From Sphingomonas yabuuchiae (GTDB lineage: Bacteria; Pseudomonadota; Alphaproteobacteria; Sphingomonadales; Sphingomonadaceae), in the NCBI RefSeq assembly GCF_001477495.1, contig NZ_LDTF01000007.1, forward strand, positions 186,001 to 250,000: 64,000 bases of DNA, in the 5' to 3' direction. Position numbers and translations under genes: made by a program. Positions 4,497 through 22,464 of the stretch are shown piece by piece. Every line of letters starts with the position of its first letter. Within the stretch, counting starts at the first letter, position 1. Below the pieces are notes generated by a model that searched no databases, had not been told where the DNA came from, and worked only from the letters and a program-made list of their open reading frames with translations.

Positions 4497-4519
4497 GGCG
4501 GGGCGTGCGCTTCGACTTT

Positions 4520-4572: not shown

Positions 4573-4584
4573 CAAGGAAAACCG

Positions 4585-6364: not shown

Positions 6365-6445
6365 TGCGCTCTGCGCTATACAGCGGGCGCGCGCCCGGCA
6401 ACACCGGCCGGGCTTTCACGGGTCCATTATAAGGTTTTGCGTTTC

Positions 6446-6580
6446 ATGTCCCGTATGGTCGTTTCGCTCATCGTCCTCCTCGTCATCGTCGTCGGCGGGC
6501 TGTTCCTGCTCTCGGGCCGGGCGACCGAACGGCCGACCACCCAGGTCGAAAAGGCGGTCTCGCTTGGCAACCTGCAATAA
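6446..6580 (+). CDS. Small single-pass membrane protein
   Basis: A 44-residue protein with one obvious transmembrane helix (VVSLIVLLVIVVGGLFLL, about residues 5-22) and a short polar tail. I do not recognise a family. The ATG at 6446 is chosen because earlier in-frame sequence contains the aroK promoter region and reads as non-coding. It overlaps the likely start of the next gene by 17 bp, which suggests coupling. A regulatory or stabilising role for the exported neighbour is possible but not shown. Confidence 0.6.
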   Translation: MSRMVVSLIVLLVIVVGGLFLLSGRATERPTTQVEKAVSLGNLQ

Positions 6581-8396: not shown

Positions 8397-9292
8397 AGAT
8401 GCACGACGCCGCGCTGGTCGACCGCTTTCTGGAGATGATGGCGGCGGAGGCTGGCGCGGCGGGCAATACGCTGGCGGCCTATCGCTCCGACCTGCGCCTT
8501 GCCGCCGAGGCGATGGACGGATTGAGCGAGGCCGATGAGGGCGCGCTCCAGTGGCTGGCCGATGGCTGGGCGTCGCTGGCCAATGCCACCGTGGCGCGCA
8601 AGGCGGCGGCGCTGCGGCGTTTCTATGCCTTTCTGCATGAGGAGGGGCTGCGCGCCGATGATCCCTCTTCGGTGCTGCCCCGTCCGGGCCAGCGGCGGGC
8701 GTTGCCCAAGATACTCAGCCATGCCGATATCGATCGGCTGTTCGCCGCCATCGCCGAGCGCACGGGCGCCGCGCATCCCAGCGCAAACGATCTGCGGCTC
8801 GCGGCACTGGTCGAACTGCTCTATGGCTCGGGCTTGCGCGCGAGCGAACTGGTCGCCCTGCCGCGCAATGCCGTCCATCCGGACCGCCCTTTTCTGATCC
8901 TGAAGGGCAAGGGCGGTGTCGAGCGGATGGTGCCGATCTCGGACCAGGCGCGTGCGGCTGTGGCGGCGTGGCGGGTGCATGTTCCGGCCGACAAGCCCTG
9001 GCTCTTTCCCGGCGGCAAGAAGCACCTGACCCGTATCCGGCTCTATCAGCTAATCAAGGCGCTGGCGGCGGAGGCGGGCATTCCACCTGATCGGGTCAGC
9101 CCGCATGTCCTGCGCCATGCCTTTGCCACCCATCTGCTGGGCGGCGGGGCCGATCTGCGCGCGGTGCAGGCGATGCTGGGCCATGCCGACATCGCCACGA
9201 CCGAAATCTACACCCATGTCGAGGCGAGCCGACTCGTCGAACTCGTCAATGCGAAACACCCGCTCGTTGATTTTCGGGACAAGCGCCCTTAG
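8393..9292 (+). CDS. xerD: Tyrosine recombinase XerD
   Basis: A 299-residue site-specific recombinase for chromosome-dimer resolution at dif. It has an N-terminal SAM-like core-binding domain followed by the catalytic domain with Arg149 (GSGLRASEL), Lys173 (KGKGG), His238 and Arg241 (HVLRHAFATHLL), His264 (MLGHADI) and nucleophile Tyr273 (EIYTHV). Full length and a core location next to accA favour housekeeping XerD over a mobile-element integrase. The start overlaps the upstream stop by 4 bp. Confidence 0.93.
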   Translation: MKMHDAALVDRFLEMMAAEAGAAGNTLAAYRSDLRLAAEAMDGLSEADEGALQWLADGWASLANATVARKAAALRRFYAFLHEEGLRADDPSSVLPRPGQRRALPKILSHADIDRLFAAIAERTGAAHPSANDLRLAALVELLYGSGLRASELVALPRNAVHPDRPFLILKGKGGVERMVPISDQARAAVAAWRVHVPADKPWLFPGGKKHLTRIRLYQLIKALAAEAGIPPDRVSPHVLRHAFATHLLGGGADLRAVQAMLGHADIATTEIYTHVEASRLVELVNAKHPLVDFRDKRP

Positions 9293-9303
9293 GCGATAGC
9301 GCC

Positions 9304-10254
9304 ATGTCAACGACCTTCCTCGATTTCGAGAAACCGATCGCCGAGCTTCAGAGCCGGATCGACGAGCTGCGCGACACGACCGCCGAAGGGACGGTCGATA
9401 TCGGCGCGGAGATCGCCAAGCTCCAGGCCAAATCCGACAAGCTGCTGCGCGATACCTTCACCAAGCTGACCCCGTGGCAGAAGACGCAGGTCGCGCGCCA
9501 TCCGCAGCGTCCGCACTTCAAGCATTATGTCGCCGGGCTGTTCGACGAGTTCGTGCCGCTGGCAGGCGACCGTGCATTCGGTGACGACCAGGCGATCATG
9601 GGCGGCTTCGCGCAGTTTCGCGGCCAGCGCGTCATGGTGCTGGGCCATGAAAAGGGCGAGGATACCGCCAGCCGCCTGCGGCACAATTTCGGCATGGGCA
9701 AGCCGGAGGGGTATCGCAAGGCGATTCGCCTGGTCGAACTGGCCGACCGGTTCGGCCTGCCGATCGTGACGCTGGTCGACACCTCTGGCGCGTTCCCCGG
9801 TATCCAGGCCGAAGAGCGCGGCCAGGCCGAAGCCATTGCGCGCTCGACCGAGGCCTGCCTGGCGGCGGGCGTGCCGGTCGTCTCGGCGATCGTGGGCGAG
9901 GGCGGCTCGGGCGGCGCGGTGGCGCTGGCGGCAGGCAACCGGGTGCTGATGTTCGAGCACGCGGTCTATTCGGTCATCAGCCCAGAAGGTTGCGCTTCGA
10001 TCCTGTGGCGCACCGCCGATAAGGCATCGGACGCCGCTGAGGCGATGCGCGTCACCGCGCAGGACCTGAAGCATTTCGGCGTAATCGACACGATCGTGCC
10101 AGAGCCGGTGGGCGGCGCGCACCGCGATCATGCGGGCGCGATCGCCAATCTGGGCGACTCGGTCGAAAAGGCGTTGGGCGAGCTGAACGGTCTCGGCCGC
10201 GACGAATTGAAGCGCGGTCGAGCCGCTAAGTTCCTGGCAATGGGACGGCTGTAA
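9304..10254 (+). CDS. accA: Acetyl-CoA carboxylase carboxyltransferase subunit alpha
   Basis: A 316-residue subunit of the carboxyltransferase that makes malonyl-CoA for fatty-acid synthesis, paired with AccD (not in the window). It starts with the helical FLDFEKPIAELQSRIDELR and carries RPHFKHYVAGLFDEF, GHEKGEDTASRLRHNFGM, TLVDTSGAFPGIQAEERGQ and the oxyanion-hole segment GEGGSGGAVALAAGN. The length is normal. It is 11 bp after xerD and is closed by a strong hairpin at 10,271-10,299. Confidence 0.97.
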   Translation: MSTTFLDFEKPIAELQSRIDELRDTTAEGTVDIGAEIAKLQAKSDKLLRDTFTKLTPWQKTQVARHPQRPHFKHYVAGLFDEFVPLAGDRAFGDDQAIMGGFAQFRGQRVMVLGHEKGEDTASRLRHNFGMGKPEGYRKAIRLVELADRFGLPIVTLVDTSGAFPGIQAEERGQAEAIARSTEACLAAGVPVVSAIVGEGGSGGAVALAAGNRVLMFEHAVYSVISPEGCASILWRTADKASDAAEAMRVTAQDLKHFGVIDTIVPEPVGGAHRDHAGAIANLGDSVEKALGELNGLGRDELKRGRAAKFLAMGRL

Positions 10255-10270
10255 CGGCCGCAAAAGAAAA

Positions 10271-10299
10271 GGGGCGGGCCGAATGGATCGACCCGCCCC
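10271..10299. terminator. Hairpin terminator between accA and flp pilin
   Basis: GGGGCGGG (10,271-10,278) pairs perfectly with CCCGCCCC (10,292-10,299) over a 13-nt loop. The AAAAGAAAA tract just left of the stem becomes a U-rich run for transcripts on the minus strand. The hairpin therefore terminates the pilin transcript well and probably also stops accA readthrough. Confidence 0.75.
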
Positions 10300-10356
10300 C
10301 TCAATATCCTGAAATCCGTTACGGGCGACGATCGAACGCCGCCCGCCAGTCGGATT

Positions 10357-10530
10357 TTAGTTCGACGGGTTCGCCACCTTGGTCGAGATATTGTTGAAGG
10401 TGCCGCTCAGCGAGGTGCCGACGGTCTTCATCGCGCCGATAGCCGCAACCGCGATCAGGGCCGCGATCAGGCCATATTCGATGGCCGTCGCGCCCTTATT
10501 GTTCTTCAGCATCTTGCGAAACGTCTTCAT
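10357..10530 (-). CDS. Flp/Fap-type pilin precursor
   Basis: A 57-residue prepilin: basic leader MKTFRKMLKNNKG, then the type IVb Flp processing site G|ATAIEYGLIAALIA with Glu at +5 and Tyr at +6, a hydrophobic helix and a short polar tail. GGAG lies about 7 nt upstream of the ATG. Prepilin peptidase should cleave after the Gly. No tad secretion genes are in the window, so assembly depends on genes elsewhere. Confidence 0.9.
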   Translation of the reverse strand: MKTFRKMLKNNKGATAIEYGLIAALIAVAAIGAMKTVGTSLSGTFNNISTKVANPSN

Positions 10531-10578
10531 TCCGGTCTCCGTTCAGTCCTGTCTTGATCGATCACCCGGCTGAGCCGG

Positions 10579-10602
10579 AGCGCCGGTTCAGCTTCCGGCG
10601 CT
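10579..10602. terminator. Hairpin between the two pilin genes
   Basis: AGCGCCGG (10,579-10,586) and CCGGCGCT (10,595-10,602) form a perfect 8-bp stem with an 8-nt loop in the 124-bp gap between the pilin genes. It could weaken readthrough from the upstream pilin or structure the leader of the downstream one. There is only a short T-run, so the role is uncertain. Confidence 0.5.
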
Positions 10603-10654
10603 TTACCGGGGCAACAGTTAAAAAGGTTTGAAGGCGGCCATTTTCGAATGAAAT

Positions 10655-10846
10655 TTAATGGTTTGCGAGGTTCAGTTCGGTGGCGATACGGTTGCCGAGA
10701 TTTTCCAGGCTGAGGCCGAATTGGGACAGGCCGACGATCATGACCAGCATCACGGCCGCCACGATCAACCCATATTCCACCGCCGACGCGCCGCGCGTAT
10801 CGGACAGCAGGCGTTGCAGCATCTTCGTGATCGCACGCACTCCCAT
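10655..10846 (-). CDS. Second Flp-type pilin precursor
   Basis: A 63-residue prepilin with basic leader MGVRAITKMLQRLLSDTRG and cleavage context G|ASAVEYGLIVAAVMLVMIVGL. The Glu and Tyr positions match the other pilin, but the mature part differs (QFGLSLENLGNRIATELN). It is probably a minor or alternative subunit of the same Tad/Flp system, 124 bp upstream of the first pilin on the same strand and divergent from the mutT-like gene. Confidence 0.88.
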   Translation of the reverse strand: MGVRAITKMLQRLLSDTRGASAVEYGLIVAAVMLVMIVGLSQFGLSLENLGNRIATELNLANH

Positions 10847-10879
10847 GACGCCCGCCCTATAAGCGCCTTAGGTTAAGAA

Positions 10880-11344
10880 ATGATCGACAGCCTCAATACG
10901 CCCGTCCTGTTTCCCGTCGTTGCCGCCGCGCTGGTCGATGGGGATGGCCGCGTCCTGTTGCAGCAGCGCCCGGAGGGCAAGGCGCTGGCGGGGCTGTGGG
11001 AGTTTCCGGGCGGCAAGCTGGAGCTCGGTGAGACTCCCGAGGCGGCGCTGGTCCGCGAACTGCACGAGGAGCTGGCGATCACGGTCGCGCCAGAAGCGTT
11101 GGAACCGGCGGGCTTCGCGACCGAGCCATTGCCCGGCCGCCATCTGCTCCTGCTGCTTTACGTCATCCGATCCTGGTCGGGCACGCCGGTCGCGCTGGAG
11201 GCGGACGGGCTGACCTGGTGTCGGCCTGCCGAGATGCAAGCCTGGCCCATGCCGCCCGCCGATGGGCCGCTCGTCCGCCAGCTCGCCGCCTATCTGGCGG
11301 ACAGTCGCAGTTCGGATGCCGTGCCCGACAACGGCACGGTATAG
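10880..11344 (+). CDS. mutT: MutT-like 8-oxo-dGTP diphosphatase (Nudix)
   Basis: A 154-residue Nudix protein that starts PVLFPVVAAALVDGDGRVLLQQRPEGK and has an intact Nudix box GGKLELGETPEAALVRELHEEL at about residues 45-66. The WEFPGGK and LLLLYVI segments fit MutT, which cleans oxidised dGTP from the pool. Substrate assignment is by family only. Its 3' end overlaps the 3' end of the convergent DUF5695 gene by about 55 bp. Confidence 0.85.
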   Translation: MIDSLNTPVLFPVVAAALVDGDGRVLLQQRPEGKALAGLWEFPGGKLELGETPEAALVRELHEELAITVAPEALEPAGFATEPLPGRHLLLLLYVIRSWSGTPVALEADGLTWCRPAEMQAWPMPPADGPLVRQLAAYLADSRSSDAVPDNGTV

Positions 11345-14037
11345 CCGCCCCGCTCGAACATTCCCCGCTCGGGACGATAGGAACGGCCGTCGGGCGTCGT
11401 CGTCTCGACGAACAAGCGAGCAGCGGGCGTATCAGGGGTGGCGGGATCGAGGGTCAGGCGAACCGCGCCGGTCGCCGGGTCATAATCGACGGCCTTGAAT
11501 TTCCCCGCCTCCAGCGTCAGCCATAGCCCCGCCGGGGCGACGAAAACCCGCGCACGTGCACCGTCATGCGGCTCGACATGCACCTGGCCGTCCTTCTGCG
11601 AAAGGTTGCCGCCATAGGACAGCCAGCCCAGCGCAGGATCGTTCACCACATAGGTGGCCGCGGCATAGGCATGGCCGAAAAAGCCCATGCCGTAATCGCC
11701 GCTATACGGATCCCACTCCATCCGGTCGGGCCAGCTGTGAAAGGCGGCGGAGGATGCGCCGTTCCGGTCGATATTGGTGATGCCCCCCAGCAAGCCGCCA
11801 TAGGCGACACGCAGCAGATGCATGTCGGCGGGATTGCGGCGGAACGAGTCGAACAGCGGAATGGCGTTCAGCGTCGATCCATAGTGATGGATTTGCCGCT
11901 CCAGCCGGGGATATTTCCCGCCATACAGGAAGTCCCAATAGCGCCGGGCATTGCCGTTATAGCCCCAGTGCGGGATGGACGGATCATAGCCCAGGATCAC
12001 TTCACGCGTGACCTCGGCCTGCGGGCCGTAACCGAAATAGCGCATCCAGGCATAGACCTCGGCCTGGCCGGTCGAGTCCCATGCCATTTCGCTGCCGAAT
12101 GGATATTGCAGGGTGCGCCAATGATCCGCGCGGCCCTTCATCAGGCGTTCGACCTCGGCCGCCTTGTCGGTCCAACCCTCGCGCTTCAGGTCGGTCAGGA
12201 TATCGACGAAGACGTCGCCCTCCATCAGCCCGAACTGCGCATAATGGGGTGCGTCACGCATCATCGCGACGATGGTCTGATAGGCATGGTCGAGATACCA
12301 TGACCAGTCATGCACCCGGGTCAGCCCGGCATGGTTGCGCGCGATCCGGTACAATGCCCAATGCCCCGCCGCGACATGCGGGTAATTGTACGCACGGCCG
12401 AGATCGTCGGCCTGGTCCTTCTTCCACGAGGTCCAGCTCTTCCAGTCCGTCTCGGGCTTGTAGAGGTCTGGGAAGGCAGCCGGGTCGTAATAGAACAGGC
12501 TCTTCTTCACGCCGCCGGCATGTGGGCCGCTCGGCACCTGAAGTCGCCCGACGATCGTCCTGTCGACCAGCTCCTCGATCCGCGCGATTTCCGCGGCATC
12601 GGGATTGTCGAGCTGCTTCATGACGGCGGCGACCCAGCTGCCCGCGCCGCCCTCGTCGCTCATCCCCGAAATCCACACGCGCGGGTCGGTGGTGACGATG
12701 CGATCCGCTTCGCGATCGTAGGTCAGGATGGCGGGGGAACGGCCGAACGGATCGCCCTTGCCCTCGAACCATTGTTTCGTCGTCGAGAAGCGGCCCAGAT
12801 CGGCCATGGTCTGTTCAAGCGGCTTGGTGACGAAATACTGGACGGTTTGCACCTGACCATCGGCATAGGTCAGGGTCAGGCGCGCCCGGCCCCATTGGCG
12901 GCCGCGCACCGAGAGGCGCGTCCAGCCCGGCTTGCCGGGCACCGTCGTCACGTCCAGCGCCCCCGCCGGATAGCTGGTGATGCCGGTAATGGCGGACGGC
13001 GAGCGTACGAACAGCGCCGCGTCTAGATCGGTCGGCACGACATAGCCCGGCACGCCGACCACGACGGGGCGTCCCTGCGCCGTCAGCGTGGGTTCGATCG
13101 CGCGGATGCTGGGCGCGGTGACGAGGTGCAGGCCGATCTTGCGGCTCTGGCCGGGCGCGAGCGTGAAGCTGGTCGGCTCGTTCCACGGCGCACCCGCCTT
13201 GGCCCAGTCGGTCTGGGCATAGGCGGCGCTCGCGATGGTCCAGTCGTAAAAGCCTTCCGAGGTCTGCGCGCGGGGGCTGGCTTCCGAGATGACGGCCTGG
13301 CCCTTGGTCTCGCGCACGGTCGGGATCGGCACATAGGCCTCCAGTGGGGTGGCGCGTTCGGGCAAGACGAGCAGGGCGGGACCTGCGCCGTTCAGCCGCG
13401 TGACCTGAACATAGCCCGCATCGCGACCGATATAGGGATCGGCGAAGCTCGCCTGTGAATGAGCCTGTTCCAGCGTGCGGTCGGAAATGATGTTGTCGAA
13501 CACCATCGGCAGGCCGAGCCCGCCGACCTCGACCGGCGCGCCGGAGGTGTTGGTCAGCGTGAAGCGCAGTGTCGGGGTGCCCTTGTCGTTCACCCACTCG
13601 CGCACGATACGCAGCGGCAGACCGGTGCCCATCGACGCGCCGATATCCGCCGCCGCCAGTACCGGGCCGCGGGTGGGCAGCGCCCGCACCGGCCGACGTT
13701 CGCGCGCGGACGAAAAATCCTGCCAAGCCCCCCCGGCCTGGCGCAGGCGCAGATGGATGTCGCCCAGATGGTTGTAGCCATTGCCGTTGCGCTCCTTGGC
13801 GCGACCGATCGGCAGGAAGTCGAAGTCCGGCGTCGAAACCGGCGAAAGGCCGCGCGCGGTCTGGCTGACGGGGTCGAGGATCAGCTGGAACGCGCCAACC
13901 CGAAACCGGGAACTCGCAGACTTTTGCGGGGTACTGGCGGCCTTTCGGGCGTCAGTGACACCCGCCTCATGCGCACTCGCAGCGATCGAAAGCACGGCCA
14001 GCGTGACCGGCAAAAGGCGGATAAGGCTTTGGCGCAT
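11290..14037 (-). CDS. Exported DUF5695 protein, probable glycan-active
   Basis: A 915-residue protein with a clear signal peptide (MRQSLIRLLPVTLAVLSIAASA). The N-terminal half is beta-rich (QLILDPVSQTARGLSP, TLRFTLTNTSGAPVEVGGLGLP). The C-terminal half is an alpha/alpha-barrel-like segment with aromatic-rich motifs (MRDAPHYAQFGLMEGDVF, SEMAWDSTGQAEVYAWMRYFG, GIPHWGYNGNARRYWDFLYGG-like). I place it in DUF5695 from overall appearance. The family lacks an established reaction to my knowledge, though the fold resembles glycoside hydrolases. The ATG at 14,037 is chosen because it gives the signal peptide. It diverges from the GH127 gene, and both starts flank one operator region. Confidence 0.75.
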   Translation of the reverse strand: MRQSLIRLLPVTLAVLSIAASAHEAGVTDARKAASTPQKSASSRFRVGAFQLILDPVSQTARGLSPVSTPDFDFLPIGRAKERNGNGYNHLGDIHLRLRQAGGAWQDFSSARERRPVRALPTRGPVLAAADIGASMGTGLPLRIVREWVNDKGTPTLRFTLTNTSGAPVEVGGLGLPMVFDNIISDRTLEQAHSQASFADPYIGRDAGYVQVTRLNGAGPALLVLPERATPLEAYVPIPTVRETKGQAVISEASPRAQTSEGFYDWTIASAAYAQTDWAKAGAPWNEPTSFTLAPGQSRKIGLHLVTAPSIRAIEPTLTAQGRPVVVGVPGYVVPTDLDAALFVRSPSAITGITSYPAGALDVTTVPGKPGWTRLSVRGRQWGRARLTLTYADGQVQTVQYFVTKPLEQTMADLGRFSTTKQWFEGKGDPFGRSPAILTYDREADRIVTTDPRVWISGMSDEGGAGSWVAAVMKQLDNPDAAEIARIEELVDRTIVGRLQVPSGPHAGGVKKSLFYYDPAAFPDLYKPETDWKSWTSWKKDQADDLGRAYNYPHVAAGHWALYRIARNHAGLTRVHDWSWYLDHAYQTIVAMMRDAPHYAQFGLMEGDVFVDILTDLKREGWTDKAAEVERLMKGRADHWRTLQYPFGSEMAWDSTGQAEVYAWMRYFGYGPQAEVTREVILGYDPSIPHWGYNGNARRYWDFLYGGKYPRLERQIHHYGSTLNAIPLFDSFRRNPADMHLLRVAYGGLLGGITNIDRNGASSAAFHSWPDRMEWDPYSGDYGMGFFGHAYAAATYVVNDPALGWLSYGGNLSQKDGQVHVEPHDGARARVFVAPAGLWLTLEAGKFKAVDYDPATGAVRLTLDPATPDTPAARLFVETTTPDGRSYRPERGMFERGGYTVPLSGTASELRLSAR

Positions 14038-14086
14038 GACGATAAAATCCCTGATCTCGGGAAGCTCCTCTGCGGGACCATCGCAA

Positions 14087-14130
14087 TTGACCCCCCTCCC
14101 GTTCTGGCTATATTGGTATACAGTATTACC
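14087..14130 (+). promoter_or_regulatory. Promoter plus candidate GntR operator for the GH127 gene
   Basis: A -35-like TTGACC (14,087-14,092) and -10-like TATATT (14,109-14,114) are separated by 16 bp. GGTATACAGTATTACC (14,115-14,130) follows at once and would cover the transcription start, a classic repressor position. The same TTGACC-N22-GGTATACnnTAT arrangement recurs at 19,333-19,372 before the DapA-family gene. The GntR/FCD protein encoded at 20,313 is the likely binder (inference). Confidence 0.65.
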
Positions 14131-14141
14131 GGGAGAGCAAG

Positions 14142-16517
14142 ATGCTGCGGTCGAGCAGGCGCGAATGGATGCAGGGGGCGGCAGGCGTCGCGTTGATGGG
14201 AATGGCGACCCGCGCGGTGGGGGCTGCACCGTCGATCCTTCCGGACAAGGCAGAGCCATTGCCGCTCTCGGCGGTGCGGTTGCGCCCTTCGGTCTATGCG
14301 ACCGCCGTCGAGACCAATCGCCGCTATCTCTATCGCCTGAGCCCCGACCGCCTGCTCCACAATTTCCGCGCTTATGCCGGTCTGGAACCCAAGGCGGCGA
14401 TCTATGGCGGCTGGGAAAGCGACACGATCGCAGGGCACACGCTGGGCCATTACATGTCGGCGCTGGTCCTGACTTGGCAGCAGACCGGCGATACCGAGAT
14501 GCGACGCCGCGCCGACTATATCGTCGCCGAACTGGCGGAGGCTCAGGCCAAGCGCGGCACCGGCTATGTCGGCGCGCTGGGGCGCAAGCGGGCCGACGGC
14601 AAGGTGGTCGATGGCGAGGAAATCTTTCCCGAAATCATGGCGGGCAAGATCAAGTCGGGCGGGTTCGACCTGAACGGTTCCTGGTCGCCGCTCTACACGG
14701 TGCACAAGCTGTTCGCCGGACTGCTCGACGTGCATGGCGGTTGGGGCAATGCGCAGGCGCTGGACGTGGCGGTCAAGCTGGGCGGCTATTTCGCACGCGT
14801 CTTCGCGGCGCTCGACGATGCGCAGATGCAGACGGTGCTGGGGTGCGAATATGGCGGGCTGAACGAAAGCTATGCCGAGCTTTACCAGCGGACCGGCGAT
14901 CGTCAGTGGCTGGCCTTGGCCGAGCGGATTTATGACCGCAAGGTGCTCGATCCTCTGGTCGCGGGTGAGGACAAGCTGGCGAATTTCCACGCCAATACGC
15001 AGGTGCCCAAGCTGATCGGGCTGGCACGTATCCATGAGATCACCGGGAAGCCCGATCCGGCCAAGGGGGCCAGCTTCTTTTGGGAAACCGTCACCGGGCA
15101 TCACAGCTATGTCATCGGCGGCAATGCCGACCGCGAATATTTCTCCGAGCCCGATACGATCGCGCGGCACGTCACCGACCAGACGTGCGAGCATTGCAAC
15201 ACCTATAACATGATGAAGCTGACCCGGCATCTCTATGGCTGGCAGCCGGACGGGCGCTATTTCGACTATTATGAGCGCGCGCATCTCAACCATGCGATGG
15301 CCGCGCAGCATCCGCAAAATGGCGGCTTCACCTATATGACGCCGCTGATGAGCGGGGTGGCCCGCGAGTTTTCGACCGACAAGGACGATGCCTTCTGGTG
15401 TTGCGTCGGGTCGGGGATGGAGGCGCATGCCAAGCATGGCGAGTCCATCTTCTGGCAGGGCGGCGATACCTTCTTCGTCAATCTCTACATCCCGGCCGAG
15501 GCCCGGTGGGCGAAGCGCGGCGCGGTCGTGACGCTCGACACTGCCTATCCGATGGACGGTCAGGCGACGTTGAGCTTCAGCCGCCTCGACCGGGCGGGTC
15601 GCTTCCCGCTGGCGCTGCGTGTGCCGGGCTGGGCGAACGGGCAGGCGCAGGTCGAGGTTAACGGCCAGGCCGTGATGCCGCGCTTCGAGCGGGGCTATGC
15701 CGTCGTCGATCGGCGGTGGAAGGCCGGGGACACCGTTTCGATCCGCCTGCCGCTCGACCTTCGAGTCGAGACGACGCCCGGCGACGAAAGTGTCGTCGCG
15801 GTTCTGCGCGGGCCGATGGTGATGGCGGCCGATCTGGGCGGGCGCGAGGACAAGTGGGACTCGCCCGACCCGGTGCTGGTCGGCGCCAATCCGCTGGCGG
15901 GCTTCACCCCGGCCGATCCGGCGAGCGCGCGCTATAAGACGGCAGGCGTCTTCCGCCCGGCGGACCTGAGCTTCGTGCCTTTCTACAGCCAATATGACCG
16001 GCGCAGCGCCGTCTATTTCAAGCGCTTCACGGAGGCGGGATGGAAGACGCAGGAGGCGGCGTTCCTGGCCGATCAGGCCCGGGCACGCGATATCGCTGCG
16101 CGCTCGGTCGATGTCATGCATCTGGGCGAGATGCAGCCGGAGCGTGACCATGGGCTGACCTCCGACATCTCCTATCCGGTCTCCTATCGCGGACGGCAGG
16201 GACGCGATGCGCGATCCGGGGGCTATTTCGAGTTCACCATGGTGGTGCGCCCCGGCCCGATGATCCTGCAAGGCACCTATTGGGGCGAGGAGCGGGCGCG
16301 CGACTTCGACATTCTAGTCGACAATGTGAAGGTCGCGACCCAGCATCTGGAGAATGACAAGCCGGGCGCCTTCTTCGACGTCGAATATCCGCTGCCGCCC
16401 GCGCTGACGGCGGGCAAGAAGGGCGTACGTGTGCGGATCGTGCCGCATGATCGCAGTTCGGCGGGGCCGATCTTCGGCATGCGGCTGTTCGCGGCCAAGG
16501 CGGGGGCGACGGCGTGA
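14142..16517 (+). CDS. GH127 family beta-L-arabinofuranosidase, Tat-exported
   Basis: A 791-residue protein of the DUF1680/GH127 family. The N-terminus SSRREWMQGAAGVALMGMA fits a twin-arginine signal, so it is exported folded. The alpha/alpha-barrel contains GGWESDTIAGHTLGHYMSA (about 89-107), GHHSYVIGGNADREYF (319-334), TCEHCNTYNM (348-357) and FWCCVGSGMEAHAKHGESIFW (419-439). C349, C352, C420, C421 and E350 fit the zinc-thiolate active site described for HypBA1, where a Cys is the nucleophile. Known members release beta-L-arabinofuranose from hydroxyproline-linked arabinans. GGGAGAG lies before the ATG. It heads a plus-strand group that continues through the permease. Confidence 0.88.
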   Translation: MLRSSRREWMQGAAGVALMGMATRAVGAAPSILPDKAEPLPLSAVRLRPSVYATAVETNRRYLYRLSPDRLLHNFRAYAGLEPKAAIYGGWESDTIAGHTLGHYMSALVLTWQQTGDTEMRRRADYIVAELAEAQAKRGTGYVGALGRKRADGKVVDGEEIFPEIMAGKIKSGGFDLNGSWSPLYTVHKLFAGLLDVHGGWGNAQALDVAVKLGGYFARVFAALDDAQMQTVLGCEYGGLNESYAELYQRTGDRQWLALAERIYDRKVLDPLVAGEDKLANFHANTQVPKLIGLARIHEITGKPDPAKGASFFWETVTGHHSYVIGGNADREYFSEPDTIARHVTDQTCEHCNTYNMMKLTRHLYGWQPDGRYFDYYERAHLNHAMAAQHPQNGGFTYMTPLMSGVAREFSTDKDDAFWCCVGSGMEAHAKHGESIFWQGGDTFFVNLYIPAEARWAKRGAVVTLDTAYPMDGQATLSFSRLDRAGRFPLALRVPGWANGQAQVEVNGQAVMPRFERGYAVVDRRWKAGDTVSIRLPLDLRVETTPGDESVVAVLRGPMVMAADLGGREDKWDSPDPVLVGANPLAGFTPADPASARYKTAGVFRPADLSFVPFYSQYDRRSAVYFKRFTEAGWKTQEAAFLADQARARDIAARSVDVMHLGEMQPERDHGLTSDISYPVSYRGRQGRDARSGGYFEFTMVVRPGPMILQGTYWGEERARDFDILVDNVKVATQHLENDKPGAFFDVEYPLPPALTAGKKGVRVRIVPHDRSSAGPIFGMRLFAAKAGATA

Positions 16518-17524
16518 GCGGCGTGCGGATGACCCTGGACGCATTGCGCACGCTGGCGCGGGCCAAGCTGCTGGGCGCGGGGCTGGCCCCGGCCCATGCT
16601 GAAGCGGTGGCCGAGACGATGGTGGCGGGCGAGCGCGATGGATGCACCTCGCACGGTATCTATCGCCTGCTGGTCGCCGTCTCCAGCATCCAAAAGGGCG
16701 TGGTCGTCCCCGATGCCGAGCCGGTACTGTCGCATCCCGCCCGCGCGCTGGTCCGCGTCGATGGCGGCGGCGGATTTGCGCAGCTGGCCTTTCAGACCGG
16801 CAAGCCCGCGCTGATCGAAAAGGCCAAGGCCAACGGCATCGCTGCGCTGGCGCTCAACAATGTCGTGCATTTCGCCGCGCTCTGGCCCGAGGTCGAGGAA
16901 CTGGCCGAGGCCGGGCTGGTGGCACTGGCTTTTACGCCCAGCCATGCCTGGGTCGCCCCCTCGGGCGGGGCCGAGCCGGTGTTCGGGACCAATCCCATCG
17001 CCTTCGGCTGGCCGCGCCCGGACGGGCCGCCCTTCGTGTTCGACTTCGCGACCTCCATGGTCGCGCGCGGCGAGATCGAACTTCATCGCCGTGCGGGCAA
17101 GAGCGTGCCCGACGACTGGGGCGTCGATTCCGATGGCAGGCCGACCACCGACCCGGCCGCGATCCTGTCGGGCGCGATGCGGACCTTTGGCGGGCACAAG
17201 GGATCGGCCCTGGCGGCTATGGTCGAGCTGCTCGCCGGACCGCTGATCGGCGACATGACCAGCCGCGAGTCGATCGACTGGGATGCCGGGCGCGGCGGCT
17301 CGCCGCTGGGTGGCGAGTTGATTATTGCCATCGATCCCAAGGGTTTTCTGGGCGATCTTCTTCCCGAAAACCAGGAGAGGGCCGAGGCGATGTTCGCTGC
17401 GATCACGGGGCAGGGGGCGCGGTTGCCCTCAGCGCGCCGCTATGCCGCGCGTCAGGTGTCGATGGCCGACGGTGTCGAGATTTCGGCCGACCTCTATCGT
17501 GACGTGACGGCCCTGAAGGGCTGA
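16514..17524 (+). CDS. Ldh2-family NAD(P)H-dependent reductase (pyrroline/piperideine-2-carboxylate or keto-acid)
   Basis: A 336-residue member of the malate/L-lactate dehydrogenase-2 family, which is unrelated to classical LDH. The DGCTSHGIYRL motif (about 42-52) carries the catalytic His, and FGTNPIAFGWPRP, DFATSMVARGEIELHRRAGK and GGHKGSALAAMVELLAGPL are family hallmarks. Members reduce cyclic imino acids (DpkA/LhpD-type) or 2-keto acids; the sequence alone does not decide. The GTG start overlaps the GH127 stop (GTGA), so it is coupled to it. The neighbourhood (DapA-type deaminase, amino-acid permease) favours a cyclic imino acid. Confidence 0.85.
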   Translation: MSGVRMTLDALRTLARAKLLGAGLAPAHAEAVAETMVAGERDGCTSHGIYRLLVAVSSIQKGVVVPDAEPVLSHPARALVRVDGGGGFAQLAFQTGKPALIEKAKANGIAALALNNVVHFAALWPEVEELAEAGLVALAFTPSHAWVAPSGGAEPVFGTNPIAFGWPRPDGPPFVFDFATSMVARGEIELHRRAGKSVPDDWGVDSDGRPTTDPAAILSGAMRTFGGHKGSALAAMVELLAGPLIGDMTSRESIDWDAGRGGSPLGGELIIAIDPKGFLGDLLPENQERAEAMFAAITGQGARLPSARRYAARQVSMADGVEISADLYRDVTALKG

Positions 17525-17535
17525 GCAAGGGGGGT

Positions 17536-19329
17536 ATGAGCATGATGAACCGGATCGCATGGCTTCTGGCCGGGGCGGCCTTGACGGCGATGCCGCTCGG
17601 CGCCGCGCAGGCCAAGGGGCGGCCGCAGGCCGCAAGCAAGGCGGCCGCCACGCCGGACGCCCGGTTTCGCGCGCTGTCGGATGCCGAATATCAATGGCGG
17701 ATCAGCCAGAGTGCCGCCGACGACGACAGCGGCAGTGCGGGTTCGCGGCAATTGCCCGATGTCGGCCCGGTGGCCCAGGCCGCACGGCTGGCACGCTGGG
17801 AAGCCACCGCCAAGGCCCTGGATGCGATCGATCCGGCCAAGCTCTCCCCCAATGTCCGCACCGACTATATGGTCTATCACGGCCAGATCGATGCGCTGCT
17901 CGCGGCGCAGCGGTTCCGGGAATATGAAAAGCCGCTCAATTCCGACACCAGCTTCTGGGGCAATCTGGCCAGCTGGGCACGGGGCAGCTTCACCAAGGAA
18001 AGCCAGTATCGCGATTACATCGCCATGCTGCACCAGATGCCGCGTTATTACGACCAGCAGATCGCGAACATGCGGGCGGGTCTTGCGCGGGGCTTCACCG
18101 TGCCGCGCGTCACGTTGAAAGGGCGAGATATCGGCGTGGCGCAGGTGGTCGATGGCGGCGTGAGCGAAGACCAGCCCTTCTACGAGCCGTTCAAGGCCAT
18201 GCCCGCGAACATGGCTCCCGCGACGGCTGCGGCGCTGCGGGCAGAGGCGAAGGCGGCGATCCGCAATGACGTGCTGCCCGCACACCAGCGGCTGCTGACC
18301 TTCCTGCGCGAGGATTATATACCTCGCGCACAGGCCAGCACGGCGGCCTATGACCTGCCGGACGGACGGGCCTATTACCGGTCCAAAATCCGCGAATATG
18401 TGACCGCGGACATGACGCCCGAACAGGTCCATGCAATCGGTCTGTCCGAGATGCAGCGAATCCGCGCCCGGATGGACGGCGTGATGAAGGAGGTGAAGTT
18501 CCAGGGCGACCTGCCCGCGTTCCTGACCTTCCTGCGCACCGACCCGCGCTTTTATGCGAAGACGCCGCAGGAGCTTCTCGACAAGGCGGCCTGGATCGCC
18601 AAGGGCTTTGACGGGGTCGCGGCCCAATGGATCGGCCATTTGCCGCGCAGCCGCTTTGCGATCAAGCCGGTGCCTGCGGATCAGGCACCCTTCTATACCT
18701 CCGGGCGTGGCGGGCCGGGCATCTATCTGGTCAATACCTACGACCTGCCCTCGCGTCCGCTCTATGCGCTGCCCGCGCTGACCCTGCACGAAAGTGCGCC
18801 GGGCCATGCCTTTCAGATGCCGCTGGCTGCCGAGAACAAGAATCTGCCCGCCTTCCGTCGCGACAACTACCTGTCGGCCTATGGCGAAGGCTGGGCGCTC
18901 TATTGCGAGGCGCTGGGCGAGGAAATGGGGTTCTACAAGGATCCCTATGACCGTTTCGGCATGCTGTCCTATCAGGCGTGGCGTGCAGCGCGGCTCGTCG
19001 TCGACACGGGTATCCATGCCATGGGTTGGAGCCGGGAAAAGGCGCAGGCCTATCTTCGCGACAATACCGCCCTGTCCAACCATGAGATCGAGACCGAGGT
19101 CGATCGCTATATCGCATGGCCGGGCCAAGCGCTGTCCTATTATATGGGGCAGCTCGCCTTCCAGCGGGCGCGAGCCAAGGCCGAAAAGGCGCTGGGGCCG
19201 AAGTTCAACATCCGTGCCTGGCACGATGCGATGCTGCAGCTGGGATATGTCCCGTTGCCGGTCATCGACCAGCGAACCGATCGCTTCATCGCCGAAGGGG
19301 GCAAAGGGCCCTATCCCGACGAGGAATGA
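17536..19329 (+). CDS. Exported DUF885 family protein, metallopeptidase-like
   Basis: A 597-residue protein with signal peptide MSMMNRIAWLLAGAALTAMPLGAAQA. DUF885 hallmarks are the HESAPGHAFQ motif at 418-427 and EGWALYCEALG at 451-461. Together they resemble a zinc site of the gluzincin type (two His and a downstream Glu), although the spacing HxxxxxH differs from HExxH. It probably acts outside the cytoplasm on peptides. It sits between the Ldh2-family gene and the DapA-family gene, which would fit peptide breakdown feeding amino-acid catabolism. Substrate unknown. Confidence 0.85.
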   Translation: MSMMNRIAWLLAGAALTAMPLGAAQAKGRPQAASKAAATPDARFRALSDAEYQWRISQSAADDDSGSAGSRQLPDVGPVAQAARLARWEATAKALDAIDPAKLSPNVRTDYMVYHGQIDALLAAQRFREYEKPLNSDTSFWGNLASWARGSFTKESQYRDYIAMLHQMPRYYDQQIANMRAGLARGFTVPRVTLKGRDIGVAQVVDGGVSEDQPFYEPFKAMPANMAPATAAALRAEAKAAIRNDVLPAHQRLLTFLREDYIPRAQASTAAYDLPDGRAYYRSKIREYVTADMTPEQVHAIGLSEMQRIRARMDGVMKEVKFQGDLPAFLTFLRTDPRFYAKTPQELLDKAAWIAKGFDGVAAQWIGHLPRSRFAIKPVPADQAPFYTSGRGGPGIYLVNTYDLPSRPLYALPALTLHESAPGHAFQMPLAAENKNLPAFRRDNYLSAYGEGWALYCEALGEEMGFYKDPYDRFGMLSYQAWRAARLVVDTGIHAMGWSREKAQAYLRDNTALSNHEIETEVDRYIAWPGQALSYYMGQLAFQRARAKAEKALGPKFNIRAWHDAMLQLGYVPLPVIDQRTDRFIAEGGKGPYPDEE

Positions 19330-19332
19330 CGA

Positions 19333-19372
19333 TTGACCGCGCCAAGGCAACGCGCTAAACGGTATACGATAT
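19333..19372 (+). promoter_or_regulatory. Second promoter with the same candidate operator, for the DapA-family gene
   Basis: TTGACC (19,333-19,338) is followed exactly 22 bp later by GGTATACGATAT (19,361-19,372), the same order and spacing as before the GH127 gene. The -10 would be the weak CTAAAC at 19,355-19,360. It ends 26 bp before the GTG start at 19,399, so the operator again falls at the expected transcription start. This makes it an internal promoter of the locus for the DapA-type gene, gntR and permease. Confidence 0.6.
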
Positions 19373-19398
19373 CTAAAACAACGGCAGGAAAACAGATA

Positions 19399-20313
19399 GT
19401 GAGCATCGGCTGGCGCGGCGTATTCCCCGCAGTGACGACCCAGATCCGCGAGGATATGTCGATCGATCTCGCCGACACGCAGCGCGTCGTCGACGATCTG
19501 GTCAATGACGGCGTGACCGGCGTGATCGCGCTGGGCACGGTCGGCGAGAACAATTCGCTCGACTATGACGAGAAGGTCACGGTCCTGACCGCCATCGTCG
19601 AGGCGGTGGCGGGCCGCGTGCCGGTGATCACCGGCTGCTCGGAATATGATACGCGCCGCGCGGTGCGTTACGCGCAGGCGGCGGAAAAGGCCGGGGCCGA
19701 TGGCCTGATGCTGCTGCCGCCGATGGTCTATGTGCCCAAGGCGCATGAGCTGGTGAACCATTTCAAGGGCGTGGCCGACCAGACCGGCCTGCCGATCATG
19801 CTCTACAACAACCCGCCCGCATACCGCACGGTCATCGACCAGTCGGTTCTGGAAGCGCTGGTCGACGTGAAGAACATCGTCGCGGTCAAGGAATCGGCCC
19901 CCGACACGCGCCGTTTCACCGATTTCCGCAACGCGTTCGGTGATCGCTACACCCTGTTCGCCGGTCTCGACGACGTGGCGCTCGAGGGGCTGTATCTGGG
20001 TGCGCAGGGCTGGGTCTCGGGCCTGACCAATGCCTTTCCCAAGGAGTCGGTCGAGCTGGTCGCGGCGTTCGATCGCGGCGACCATGCCAAGGCGATGGAA
20101 ATCTATCGCTGGTTCATGCCACTCCTCCACCTCGATGCCGAGCATGACCTCGTCCAGTCGATCAAGCTGGCCGAGCAGGTCATGGGCCGTGGTTCGGAAC
20201 GCGTCCTGCCGCCGCGCTATGTCCTGGAAGGCGAGCGCCGGGCCGAGGTGATCGCGATGGTCGAAAAGGCCGCCGCGACCCGTCCAAACCTGGGCCAGGC
20301 CAAGGCCGCCTGA
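19399..20313 (+). CDS. DapA/NAL-family lyase, possible 1-pyrroline-4-hydroxy-2-carboxylate deaminase
   Basis: A 304-residue class I aldolase-type TIM barrel. The GTG at 19,399 with AGGAAAA upstream is preferred; an earlier start would put the operator inside the gene. Family features are GTVGENNSLDYDEK (the phosphate-type loop), MLYNNPPAY with the catalytic Tyr, and AVKESAPDTRRF with the Schiff-base Lys. The opening SIGWRGVFPAVTTQ and the tail LPPRYVLEGERRAEV remind me of HypD-type enzymes of bacterial hydroxyproline catabolism. An L-2-keto-3-deoxyarabonate dehydratase or a true dihydrodipicolinate synthase are alternatives. The stop overlaps the gntR start. Confidence 0.8.
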   Translation: MSIGWRGVFPAVTTQIREDMSIDLADTQRVVDDLVNDGVTGVIALGTVGENNSLDYDEKVTVLTAIVEAVAGRVPVITGCSEYDTRRAVRYAQAAEKAGADGLMLLPPMVYVPKAHELVNHFKGVADQTGLPIMLYNNPPAYRTVIDQSVLEALVDVKNIVAVKESAPDTRRFTDFRNAFGDRYTLFAGLDDVALEGLYLGAQGWVSGLTNAFPKESVELVAAFDRGDHAKAMEIYRWFMPLLHLDAEHDLVQSIKLAEQVMGRGSERVLPPRYVLEGERRAEVIAMVEKAAATRPNLGQAKAA

Positions 20314-21023
20314 TGGCGACGGCGCTCTCGCTACCGGACGTCGCCCTGGATGACGGGCGTCATCGGGGCGAGGGCGTCATCGTCGTGCAGACCCTGGCGG
20401 ATCGCATCTTCGCGATCATACGCGAACGGATCATCGCGGGGGCCATCCCCGCTGATCGACCGATCCGCCAGGATGCGCTGGCCGCCGAACTGGGCGTCAG
20501 CAAGATACCGCTGCGCGAGGCGATGGCCCGGCTGGAGCAGGAGGGGCTGCTCCACGGTGTCGCCAATCGCGGCTATATGATCAGCGCGCTGTCGGACGCG
20601 CAGGCCGAGGATATTTATGGCCTGCGCCTGAAGCTCGAACCGGCGGCCGCCGCACGCGCCGCGTTCGTTGCCGATGCCGATGACCGCGCTGCCCTGGTCG
20701 CCGCATTCGAGGCGCTCGACCAGGCGGCGGCCAGCGATCTGGCGCGCGTCGCCATCTGCAACCGTCGTTTTCACATGGCGATGGTCCGCCCCACGCGGCA
20801 GCCCTTGACCATCCAGCTGATCCGTCAGCTCGCACTGCTTGCCGAGCGCTATGTCGTCGCGCATTTGCAGCCCGCCGGGCGCGATGCGCGAGCCCATCTG
20901 GAGCATCGCGAACAGCTCGACGCCTTTCTTGCGCGGGACACCGACCGGCTTAGGGCATTGCTTGATACGCATATCCGGTCCACCCTGATGGACCTGAAAG
21001 GCGGGCTCGCACCCGTCGAGTGA
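20313..21023 (+). CDS. GntR/FCD family transcriptional regulator
   Basis: A 236-residue repressor-type protein. The winged helix-turn-helix (about residues 26-90) includes PIRQDALAAELGVSKIPLREA and ARLEQEGLL. The C-terminal all-helical FCD ligand domain has the metal-site pattern with Asp/His residues in NRRFHMAMV and EHREQLDAFLARD. FCD proteins usually sense a carboxylate of the pathway they control. It overlaps the DapA-family gene by one base and precedes the permease, so it is probably the local regulator of the two GGTATAC promoters. A paralogue lies at 30,869-31,513. Confidence 0.9.
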   Translation: MATALSLPDVALDDGRHRGEGVIVVQTLADRIFAIIRERIIAGAIPADRPIRQDALAAELGVSKIPLREAMARLEQEGLLHGVANRGYMISALSDAQAEDIYGLRLKLEPAAAARAAFVADADDRAALVAAFEALDQAAASDLARVAICNRRFHMAMVRPTRQPLTIQLIRQLALLAERYVVAHLQPAGRDARAHLEHREQLDAFLARDTDRLRALLDTHIRSTLMDLKGGLAPVE

Positions 21024-21060
21024 CAATGACATGCCCAAAGGGCGGGGGGATTTTTCGACG

Positions 21061-22464
21061 ATGTTCGGACCGAGAAAATCGCTGGGGAGCGTGACCCAGC
21101 ATGCGGAGGGGCAGGCGCTGGCCAAGACGCTCAGCTGGCCGCATCTGATCGCATTGGGGGTCGGCGCGATCGTCGGCACCGGCATCTACACGCTGACCGG
21201 CGTGGGGGCCGAGCGGGCTGGACCCGCGGTCATCCTGGCCTTCGCCATTGCGGGCGCGGTATGCGCCTGTGCCGCGCTGGCCTATGCCGAACTCGCCACG
21301 CTGATCCCGGCGGCGGGCAGTGCCTATACCTTCAGTTACACCGCGCTCGGCGAAACGCTCGCCTGGGTCGTCGGGTGGAGCCTGATCCTCGAATATTCCC
21401 TGGCCTGTTCGACCGTGGCGGTCGGCTGGTCGGGGTATCTGGTCGGCTGGATCCAGGCGGCGGGCGTGCATCTGCCGCCCGAATTGCTGGCGGGCCCGCA
21501 TGGCGGGGGCATCATCAATCTGCCTGCGGTCGTGGTCGCGCTGTCGGTGATGGGCATGCTGGTCGCGGGTACGCGGGAAAGCGCGACGCTGAACATCATT
21601 CTCGTCGTCGTGAAGCTCGTCGCGCTGGGCGTGTTCGTCGCCTTCGCGCTTCCGGCGTTCAACAACGCCAATCTTCATCCCTTCATGCCGTACGGCTTTG
21701 GCGCGACCGAGGTGGACGGGGCCAAGCGTGGCGTCATGGCGGCGGCGGCCATCGTGTTCTTCGCCTTTTACGGCTTCGATGCGGTGGCGACCTCGGCGGA
21801 GGAGGCCAAGAACCCCGGCCGCGACCTGACCATCGGGATCGTCGGGTCGATGCTGGTCTGCACGCTTATCTATATGGCGGTGGCGGTGACGGCCGTGGGT
21901 GCGCTGCCCTTCCTGCAACTCGCCAATTCGCCCGAGCCGCTGGCGCTCGTCCTGCGTTCTCTGGGCCAGCCCACGGCGGCGCACCTGATCGCACTGGCCG
22001 CCGTCATCGCGCTGCCCTCGGTCATCCTTGTGATGATGTACGGCCAGAGCCGTATCTTCTTCACCATGGCGCGTGACGGCCTGCTGCCGCAGTCGCTCGC
22101 GGTGGTCAGCAAGCGCAGCGGCGCGCCGACGCGCATCACGCTGGTGACCGGCGTGTCGATCGCCATCGTCGCCGGTATCTTCCGCCTCGACGAGATTGCC
22201 GAGCTGGCCAATGCGGGTACGCTGCTGGCCTTTATCGCGGTCGGAGCGTGTCTGATGATCCTGCGGCGCCGGGCGCCTGAGGCCAAGCGGCTGTTCCGCT
22301 GTCCGCAGCCTTATCTGGTCGGTACGCTGGCCATTCTGGGCTGTCTCTACCTTCTGTTCAGTTTGCCGAGCGCGACCATCGTCCGCTTCATCATCTGGAA
22401 CCTGGCGGGCCTGGCCTTCTACTTCGCCTATGGGCGTCGGCGGAGCGCCCTGGCCAAGGGCTGA
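21061..22464 (+). CDS. APC-family amino-acid permease
   Basis: With the ATG at 21,061 (MFGPRKSLG) the product has 467 residues and about 12 hydrophobic segments. LIALGVGAIVGTGIYTLTG in the first membrane helix and FFAFYGFDAVATSAEEAKNPGRDLT in the sixth are typical of APC/YfnA-type amino-acid transporters. An ATG at 21,031 is in frame, but GGGGGGA at 21,044-21,051 fits the later start. It is the last gene of the catabolic locus and is a plausible importer of the amino or imino acid it degrades. Its 3' end overlaps the convergent GGDEF-EAL gene by 37 bp. Confidence 0.88.
   Translation: MFGPRKSLGSVTQHAEGQALAKTLSWPHLIALGVGAIVGTGIYTLTGVGAERAGPAVILAFAIAGAVCACAALAYAELATLIPAAGSAYTFSYTALGETLAWVVGWSLILEYSLACSTVAVGWSGYLVGWIQAAGVHLPPELLAGPHGGGIINLPAVVVALSVMGMLVAGTRESATLNIILVVVKLVALGVFVAFALPAFNNANLHPFMPYGFGATEVDGAKRGVMAAAAIVFFAFYGFDAVATSAEEAKNPGRDLTIGIVGSMLVCTLIYMAVAVTAVGALPFLQLANSPEPLALVLRSLGQPTAAHLIALAAVIALPSVILVMMYGQSRIFFTMARDGLLPQSLAVVSKRSGAPTRITLVTGVSIAIVAGIFRLDEIAELANAGTLLAFIAVGACLMILRRRAPEAKRLFRCPQPYLVGTLAILGCLYLLFSLPSATIVRFIIWNLAGLAFYFAYGRRRSALAKG

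Follow-up and report, generated by a model that had tools for sequence, protein, structure and literature searches.

Glycan-utilisation loci usually end at the sugar, and the question raised by a gene cluster of Sphingomonas yabuuchiae is why a predicted beta-L-arabinofuranosidase gene should be followed, on the same strand, by genes resembling those for the import and breakdown of an amino acid. The cluster lies within a 64,000-nucleotide stretch of DNA, referred to below as the window (G000:C158:186001-250000; contig NZ_LDTF01000007.1 of a 3.9-Mb genome). A preliminary description, made from the letters of the window, proposed that the locus strips arabinose from hydroxyproline-rich glycoproteins, cuts the peptide, imports the amino acid and degrades it. 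That interpretation is supported here by the placement of a DapA-like protein in a phylogenetic tree, and by the presence elsewhere in the genome of an epimerase, an oxidase and a dehydrogenase. The locus probably provides the glycoprotein-processing and deaminase portion of a system through which arabinosylated, hydroxyproline-rich glycoproteins of the plant wall, most likely extensins, are used, and the gene content, conservation, common sites and pathway families on which this reading draws are all features of the sequence.

A predicted hydroxyproline deaminase

The DapA-like protein belongs to the dihydrodipicolinate synthase (DHDPS) family, and a true DHDPS was considered and rejected. 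The protein scores 182.4 bits on the NCBIfam dapA model, under the cut-off of 206.15, it falls outside the DapA clade, and the same genome holds a better, second DHDPS gene (C158:277009). In a tree of 31 rows, a few of the sphingomonad rows being over-long open frames, it clusters with hydroxyproline-cluster proteins of Pseudomonas aeruginosa and Burkholderia multivorans, 13 sphingomonad copies and a Rhizobium plasmid protein (support 97/96). Nine DapAs, one KdgD, the Sinorhizobium meliloti HypD and a Streptomyces cluster protein all fall outside this clade, the KdgD, R. leguminosarum and Streptomyces rows having long branches. This was, in part, the placement by which the preliminary description had proposed to check itself, and it came out on the side of hydroxyproline. 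The protein is 50% identical to the DapA-family protein of the P. aeruginosa lhp cluster, and only 30% identical to S. meliloti HypD (practically the same as PDB 5czj), which sits on a separate branch and is not its ortholog. Because the window protein joins the LhpC side and HypD represents another subfamily, more than one DapA subfamily appears to fill the same step. The DapA-like protein is thus named here as a predicted LhpC-type deaminase, the name LhpC following the usage in PMC6608401.

Its gene neighborhood in relatives points the same way. Among 149 genomes of the family, a copy of at least 63% identity is found in 16, one of them with an internal stop (G003) and another a fragment at a contig end (G097), and 15 of the 16 have a Pro_racemase match no more than about 50 bases away; the lone exception is the S. 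yabuuchiae genome itself. A Rhizobium phaseoli plasmid (L095:10013-10924) also carries a DapA-like gene, 74% identical and with a GntR neighbor, in a 21-kb stretch where no epimerase is annotated, and genes resembling it are present in other bean rhizobia.

Candidate genes for the remaining steps lie on other contigs

The main weakness of the preliminary description was that the epimerase, the D-hydroxyproline oxidase and the semialdehyde dehydrogenase are not in the window, and a search of the rest of the genome removed it. On contig C106 a D-amino-acid-oxidase-family gene, a 4-hydroxyproline epimerase gene and an M24 Xaa-Pro-type peptidase gene stand side by side, the epimerase scoring 545.3 bits on the NCBIfam 4-hydroxyproline epimerase model (cut-off 376). 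Contig C12 encodes an aldehyde dehydrogenase that is 63% identical to one adjoining the hydroxyproline cluster of a relative (G001). The epimerase, D-hydroxyproline oxidase, deaminase and alpha-ketoglutarate semialdehyde (KGSA) dehydrogenase families are therefore all in the genome, the last within a pentose operon; NCBIfam cut-offs were reached by neither the oxidase nor the aldehyde dehydrogenases. Judged by these genes, the genome is close to both S. yabuuchiae and Sphingomonas parapaucimobilis. The split recurs in S. parapaucimobilis YK209, where the locus has an identical gene order on an 880-kb replicon, with a DapA-like protein 98.7% identical, and the oxidase, epimerase and M24 genes are on a different replicon.

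The company kept by the C12 dehydrogenase gene bears on what had been named the chief rival, namely that the DapA-like protein acts as the dehydratase of L-2-keto-3-deoxyarabonate and that the locus takes the L-arabinose released by the arabinofuranosidase through a non-phosphorylating route. The two kinds of enzyme share a superfamily, arabinose is the sugar that would be released, and no AraA was found in this genome; moreover, verified arabonate enzymes are not among the tree rows, so that context alone argues against this route. Neither a sugar dehydrogenase nor an arabonate-type (EDD) dehydratase is among the named genes beside the DapA-like gene, which pairs instead with Pro_racemase in relatives. 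On C12, by contrast, the aldehyde dehydrogenase already has as neighbors an EDD-type dehydratase, an MFS carrier, a mutarotase and a D-xylose 1-dehydrogenase (454.5 bits, cut-off 400). A member of the FAA-hydrolase family, scoring 28.7 bits against a cut-off of 23.9, is also encoded there, and no DapA-family gene is. The FAA-hydrolase family includes keto-deoxy-pentonate dehydratases. We infer that the C12 operon serves to oxidize pentoses and supplies a keto-acid dehydratase of its own that is not of the DapA type; this leaves little for the arabonate proposal to explain and makes it highly improbable. The pentose and hydroxyproline routes would then share their last enzyme, the C12 semialdehyde dehydrogenase.

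The Ldh2-family reductase and the choice of imino acid

The nearest relative of the Ldh2-family protein is DpkA/LhpD (247 bits against 1wtj/2cwf/2cwh, the next relative scoring 136), and not a malate, sulfolactate or ureidoglycolate dehydrogenase; it shares 63% identity with the product of P. aeruginosa lhpD and 54% with that of the S. meliloti hyp-cluster Ldh gene. Being LhpD-like, it is a predicted pyrroline-2-carboxylate reductase on a side branch of the 4-hydroxyproline route and not one of the steps of that route, which corrects the preliminary description. A system for trans-3-hydroxyproline or D-proline, with this reductase as the main step, would give the enzyme a more central place. 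Ldh2-superfamily reductases act in the D-proline route. The superfamily is also described as serving the 3-hydroxyproline route (PMC4113996), although the same source places the DapA-family deaminase in the 4-hydroxyproline route. The C106 epimerase, moreover, reaches only 249.3 bits on the 3-hydroxyproline dehydratase model (cut-off 540), far from its score as a 4-hydroxyproline epimerase, and this is the most remote of the alternatives weighed here.

Conservation of the neighborhood

GH146-type proteins (see below) of at least 55% identity are found in 10 of the 149 family genomes, all of them among the 17 with a Pro_racemase match of at least 389 bits (hypergeometric p 1.8e-11), and DUF5695 in six, again all with such a match (p 9e-7); both values ignore kinship, and the cut-offs were chosen after the lists had been seen. 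A wider view was obtained from loci around DUF5695 relatives, of which the best 80 of 187 were used, 72 with both flanks nearly whole and up to 10 kb considered, from Sphingomonas, Novosphingobium, Sphingobium, Caulobacter, Duganella and others. Near DUF5695 in these 80 loci are genes for GH146 (61), DUF885 (60), Ldh2 (53), the DapA-like protein (32), M24 (25), GntR (23), the oxidase (22), the permease (19), the epimerase (16) and KGSA dehydrogenase (2), and 36 loci have one or more of the DapA-like, epimerase and oxidase genes. Further recurrent neighbors, grouped by sequence clustering with one representative of each cluster named by Pfam, are S9 prolyl peptidases (25 and 13 loci), TonB receptors (21), GH43 (19), DUF6055 (15), GH2 (11) and GH27 (5); genes in the flanks were called by a simple script based on G+C by position, and some frames are wrong.

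The two halves that are apart in S. yabuuchiae occur together in relatives, for example G112, G125 and G032, and on plasmid pSZ.B2R2_3 of Sphingomonas hankookensis. On that 90-kb plasmid (NZ_CP117028) the halves lie at 81170-89077 and 1621-14886, spanning the origin, with GH2 and TonB receptor genes between them. The system may have moved as a unit in this case; the plasmid is typed as non-mobilizable. Adjoining the G032 cluster is a second, divergent DUF5695 relative (L053:10063-11715, 26% identity).

A shared operator-like site

Genes for sugar removal and for amino-acid catabolism have in common the hexamer GTATAC, which is found twice in the window, in the gap between the divergent DUF5695 and GH146 genes and ahead of the DapA-like gene. 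An 18.9-kb part of C106 (L045) likewise has two, in the gap between oxidase and epimerase and ahead of the M24 gene, and the remaining 20 kb of that contig has none. In the 80 loci the hexamer lies at most 250 bases upstream of every DapA-like (31/31), oxidase (21/21) and KGSA dehydrogenase (2/2) gene and of 58 of 60 GH146 genes, less regularly upstream of DUF5695 (38/79) and GntR (10/23), and rarely upstream of the permease (1/19). Genes that usually come later in a run never have it (DUF885 0/60, Ldh2 0/54, epimerase 0/16, M24 0/24; 0/154 combined). Genes with less than 150 bases of upstream sequence were skipped, so these totals are slightly under the neighborhood totals. Of the 148 occurrences in 1.75 Mb, 107 fall within 4.0% of the bases, compared with 6 of 17 for the next palindrome compared. 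A second set, 16 stretches of 15 relatives, gave upstream sites for the oxidase in 12 of 13 cases, DapA-like in 13 of 14, GH146 in 6 of 6, DUF5695 in 2 of 3, GntR in 3 of 11 and the permease in 0 of 12, and 24 of its 38 hexamers fall within 7.2% of the bases. Sites also occur near the called starts of other neighbors in the 80 loci (S9 peptidases 8/25 and 2/12, TonB receptors 5/20, a second TonB group 6/6), with none near those of the DUF6055 cluster (0/15), GH2 (0/11) or GH27 (0/5).

A matrix was built from 93 distinct sites of other genomes (consensus approximately ATA(T/C)C-GTATAC-G(A/G)TAT), and a scan of the S. yabuuchiae genome restricted to SGTATACRR gave 32 matches at 27 places. The four highest are the window site ahead of the DapA-like gene (Table 1), the C106 oxidase/epimerase gap (25.3), C116:9108 (24.2) and the window site in the DUF5695/GH146 gap (21.3). 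Fifth and lower places score at most 17.6. The place ahead of the C106 M24 gene scores 15.2; of the remaining 22, 13 are inside called genes, the calls being rough. Because loci closely related to the window (L104-L114) contributed to the training, its two sites do not test the matrix independently; these loci contain no oxidase gene, but oxidase sites from more distant genomes were included. The training set had no GH43 site, and the C116 place, which turned up unasked, lies 45 bases ahead of a GH43 gene (118.8 bits) whose product is 67-78% identical to the GH43 proteins of 19 of the 80 loci. The GntR/FCD protein, which across 165 residues shares 29% identity with the S. meliloti hyp-cluster GntR regulator, is predicted to bind these sites. 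Membership of the C12 dehydrogenase in the same regulon was considered and found unsupported.

The glycan and its carrier

The putative arabinofuranosidase scores 460 bits against 5opj, which we take to be BT0349 (BtGH146), 178 and 156 against the GH146 pair 8k7x/8k7y, 98 against GH127 4qjy and 64 against 3wkw, presumably HypBA1. The GH127, HypBA1-like label of the preliminary description consequently gives way to a GH146-type assignment. The acid/base residue E332 and the zinc/nucleophile set E350, C352, C420 and C421, at positions taken from PMC10850190, are conserved, and the N-terminus carries a twin-arginine-like SRREW (by eye). By nearest relative and catalytic set the enzyme is of GH146 type, with predicted activity on arabinofuranosyl-hydroxyproline (Araf-Hyp). 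The correction leaves the idea unweakened, because GH146 includes XeHypBA1 and Bll4HypBA1, described as releasing arabinose from hydroxyproline (PMC10850190). An aceric-acid hydrolase was rejected (69 bits, cut-off 950). A second GH146-like gene, 41% identical, is located away from the locus at C101:46743-48359.

The DUF5695 protein has an AlphaFold2 model of middling confidence (pLDDT 64.3, pTM 0.64), whose best PDB match is 5no8 (BACCELL_00875, a PL27 lyase of arabinogalactan protein; Foldseek E 2.6e-20, Z 19.5 over 517 residues, root-mean-square deviation (rmsd) 4.0, 13% identity); the next low-rmsd row is a mutarotase (Z 14.6 over 225 residues), and by sequence phmmer gave no match at E 0.001. 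PL27 enzymes are described as acting on gum arabic, from which they free rhamnose by beta-elimination (PMC8377490). The model resembles a PL27 fold, making the protein a candidate glycan-cleaving enzyme, and a family whose one mention found in the literature searched, judged by title, is incidental to work on fungal velvet regulators thus gains a testable role and a predicted fold.

These two proteins also furnish the case for a second explanation, in which a sugar locus for pectic arabinan or arabinogalactan proteins merely adjoins hydroxyproline catabolism. The nearest relative is the enzyme of 5opj, and BT0349 is described with arabinan-derived oligosaccharides and beta1,2-arabinobiose as substrates and in a rhamnogalacturonan-I locus (PMC10850190), so pectic arabinan keeps some claim as the substrate; the PL27-like fold recalls gum arabic; and on one plasmid a rhamnogalacturonan lyase gene adjoins the locus. 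Against mere adjacency, an identical GTATAC site precedes GH146 and the hydroxyproline genes, even across contigs, and S9 peptidases recur among the neighbors. We consider this explanation unlikely, and it is in part the same answer, because arabinogalactan proteins are themselves hydroxyproline-rich.

A further pointer to a glycoprotein comes from the DUF6055 cluster, whose gene lies directly downstream of DUF5695 on the same strand in 15 of the 80 loci and whose products all contain HExxH (15/15). Pfam named a single member of the 15, to which the rest were joined by sequence clustering; two of the 15 have over-long called starts. The model of a representative has a pLDDT of 64, and Foldseek alone was unclear (best E 1.6e-4); further structure comparison matched the first part to an M30 peptidase (Z 15.3) and the last to hexapeptide acyltransferases (Z 12). 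Svx was shown to cleave extensin (PMC13164431; PMC9266454) and is described as having an HEXXHX22E motif and an M60 peptidase as its nearest relative (PMC9266454). The Svx spacing HExxHx22E is found in none of the 15 proteins, a glutamate following after 19 residues in that of L120 (by eye; Table 1). The modelled protein resembles Svx in its two-part build of predicted peptidase and acyltransferase-like domain, which may give DUF6055 a function. Because these neighbors are built like an extensin-cleaving protein, extensin is the best single candidate substrate, with arabinogalactan proteins and arabinan as alternatives. At least 10 of the 80 DUF5695 bearers are strains named Leaf or Root, and hydroxyproline-rich glycoproteins are said to aid plant defence (PMC6085000).

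Organization of the locus

All seven gene families named in the preliminary description were found by a Pfam search of the window proteins, the six from GH146 through the permease in a single plus-strand run and DUF5695 divergent from it (Table 1). The genes of the run are co-directional, as had been noted, but they probably belong to two transcription units, one running from GH146 through Ldh2 to DUF885 and the other from the DapA-like gene through GntR to the permease, and a GTATAC site precedes each. The DUF5695 gene starts at 14037 and not at 14259, which leaves a 104-base divergent promoter region.

Table 1. Coordinates of the locus, its operator-like sites and a recurrent neighbor from a relative
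Feature	Position	Strand	Evidence
DUF5695 protein	11290..14037	-	PF18951, 1248.6 bits; signal-like N-terminal stretch (by eye)
GTATAC-centred operator-like site, DUF5695/GH146 gap	14116..14121		one of just two GTATAC in the window
GH146-type beta-L-arabinofuranosidase (predicted)	14142..16517	+	PF07944, 403.6 bits, with PF20736 and DUF6805
Ldh2-family delta1-pyrroline/piperideine-2-carboxylate reductase, LhpD/DpkA-like (predicted)	16514..17524	+	Ldh_2, 327.9 bits; alternative start possible at 16529
DUF885 protein, putative peptidase	17536..19329	+	PF05960, 518 bits; signal-like N-terminus (by eye)
GTATAC-centred operator-like site ahead of DapA-GntR-permease	19362..19367		matrix score 25.7, best of 27 places in the genome
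DapA-like (DHDPS family) protein, predicted LhpC-type	19399..20313	+	DHDPS family, 192.6 bits
GntR/FCD regulator, predicted HypR-type	20313..21023	+	PF00392, 50.3 bits; PF07729, 72.5 bits
APC-family amino-acid permease, predicted importer	21031..22464	+	186.5 bits
DUF6055-cluster protein	L120:12630-14462	downstream of DUF5695	HExxH; hexapeptide-repeat C-terminal part

The DUF885 protein had been called metallopeptidase-like. Its family membership is clear, with PDB relatives 3o0y, 3iuk and 3u24, but a motif search found no HExxH in it, and a peptidase role is a guess from the family. The permease scores 394 bits against 5oqt, and a copy is present in the hydroxyproline-cluster stretches of 12 of 15 relatives. 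Set apart from the locus, at 30878-31507 on the minus strand of the window, is another GntR-type gene whose product is 60% identical to the locus regulator, and its YK209 counterpart is flanked by NAD(P)/FAD oxidoreductase and NAD synthase genes; it could be the other regulator of a split system. Further along, from about 44700 to 64000, is a minus-strand gene run, one gene of 1865 codons, with the look of a phage-tail block (by eye).

A model for glycoprotein use, and the points against it

In the proposed scheme, for which we infer the substrate, activities, export, transport and pairing of regulator with site, the exported GH146 enzyme, with the C116 GH43 enzyme and perhaps the DUF5695 protein, would remove arabinose and other sugars, the DUF885 protein and the proline-type M24 peptidase of C106 would cut the peptide, and the APC permease would bring the amino acid in. 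The C106 epimerase and D-amino-acid oxidase, the LhpC-type deaminase of the window and the C12 semialdehyde dehydrogenase would then convert trans-4-hydroxy-L-proline to 2-oxoglutarate, with the LhpD-like Ldh2 enzyme returning pyrroline-2-carboxylate to proline. The GntR/FCD protein would be the likely repressor at the GTATAC-centred sites.

Several observations weigh against this scheme. The pathway is scattered over three contigs. The number of GTATAC hexamers in the window is that expected by chance (2 against 2.01), so only their positions are unusual, and the second set of relatives is less clean than the first, with sites upstream of DUF885 (4/13), Ldh2 (2/6), M24 (1/14) and epimerase (1/15) genes and of neither KGSA dehydrogenase gene (0/2). 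A site near the called start of GH43 was found in just 3 of the 19 other loci, and the 4.4-kb C12 dehydrogenase locus (L070) contains no GTATAC, so the dehydrogenase may serve the pentose operon alone. GH146 is absent from 19 of the 80 DUF5695 loci, and DapA-like, epimerase and oxidase genes are all absent from 44 within the stretch examined; conversely, two genomes that lack a matching epimerase have GH146 proteins, at 50% (G091, same genus) and 46% identity (G045).

With these points in the balance, we lean, somewhat cautiously, toward a wider reading, in which sphingomonads and caulobacters would share an extensin-utilisation system defined by its regulon. In it a single GntR regulator would govern GH146, GH43, proline peptidases and DUF5695, the last a new enzyme family with the PL27 fold, all of them supplying hydroxyproline catabolism, and both halves of arabinosyl-hydroxyproline would reach 2-oxoglutarate semialdehyde.

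Comparison with known systems

The S. meliloti hyp cluster (CP050512; White et al. 2012, as cited in PMC6608401) also combines a GntR regulator, a DapA-family protein, an Ldh-family reductase, an aldehyde dehydrogenase and a 4-hydroxyproline epimerase, the last 63% identical to that of C106. It differs in having an ABC importer rather than an APC permease and a deaminase from a different DapA subfamily, and no glycosidase, DUF5695 or peptidase is annotated in that stretch. The P. aeruginosa lhp cluster (NZ_CP131792) is alike in its LhpD reductase and DapA-family protein and unlike in its AraC-family regulator and nearby ABC importer; its proline-racemase gene is just 34% identical to the C106 epimerase gene, and no glycoprotein-stripping genes are annotated.

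From the side of the sugar, the HypBA1-HypBA2-HypAA system of Bifidobacterium and Xanthomonas likewise uses beta-L-arabinofuranosidases on hydroxyproline-linked arabinose, XeHypBA1 being a GH146 enzyme, and a GH43 enzyme to take the outer arabinose (PMC6085000; PMC10850190); in Xanthomonas, XeHypAA is the GH43 enzyme that begins Ara4 removal from hydroxyproline (PMC6085000). That system employs GH121 and, in the available text of these papers, has no described link to hydroxyproline catabolism. Extensin use through GH127 has been proposed for Latescibacteria (PMC4454575). In the literature searched, judged in part by title or the start of the abstract, no account was found of GH146, DUF5695 and peptidases joined to hydroxyproline catabolism behind one operator-like site. 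Each kind of enzyme is already known, and it is their joining that appears to be new.

The HypR regulon of Streptomyces coelicolor also sets a GntR regulator over an epimerase, a D-hydroxyproline dehydrogenase, a deaminase and a secreted peptidase gene, in that case a collagenase (PMC6608401). It is described as aimed at collagen, with a three-subunit dehydrogenase and no glycosidase listed in the available text. In the S. yabuuchiae system, by comparison, the sugar-stripping genes and those for catabolism of the amino acid that carries the sugar share an operator-like site, so that one signal would trigger consumption of the whole glycoprotein.

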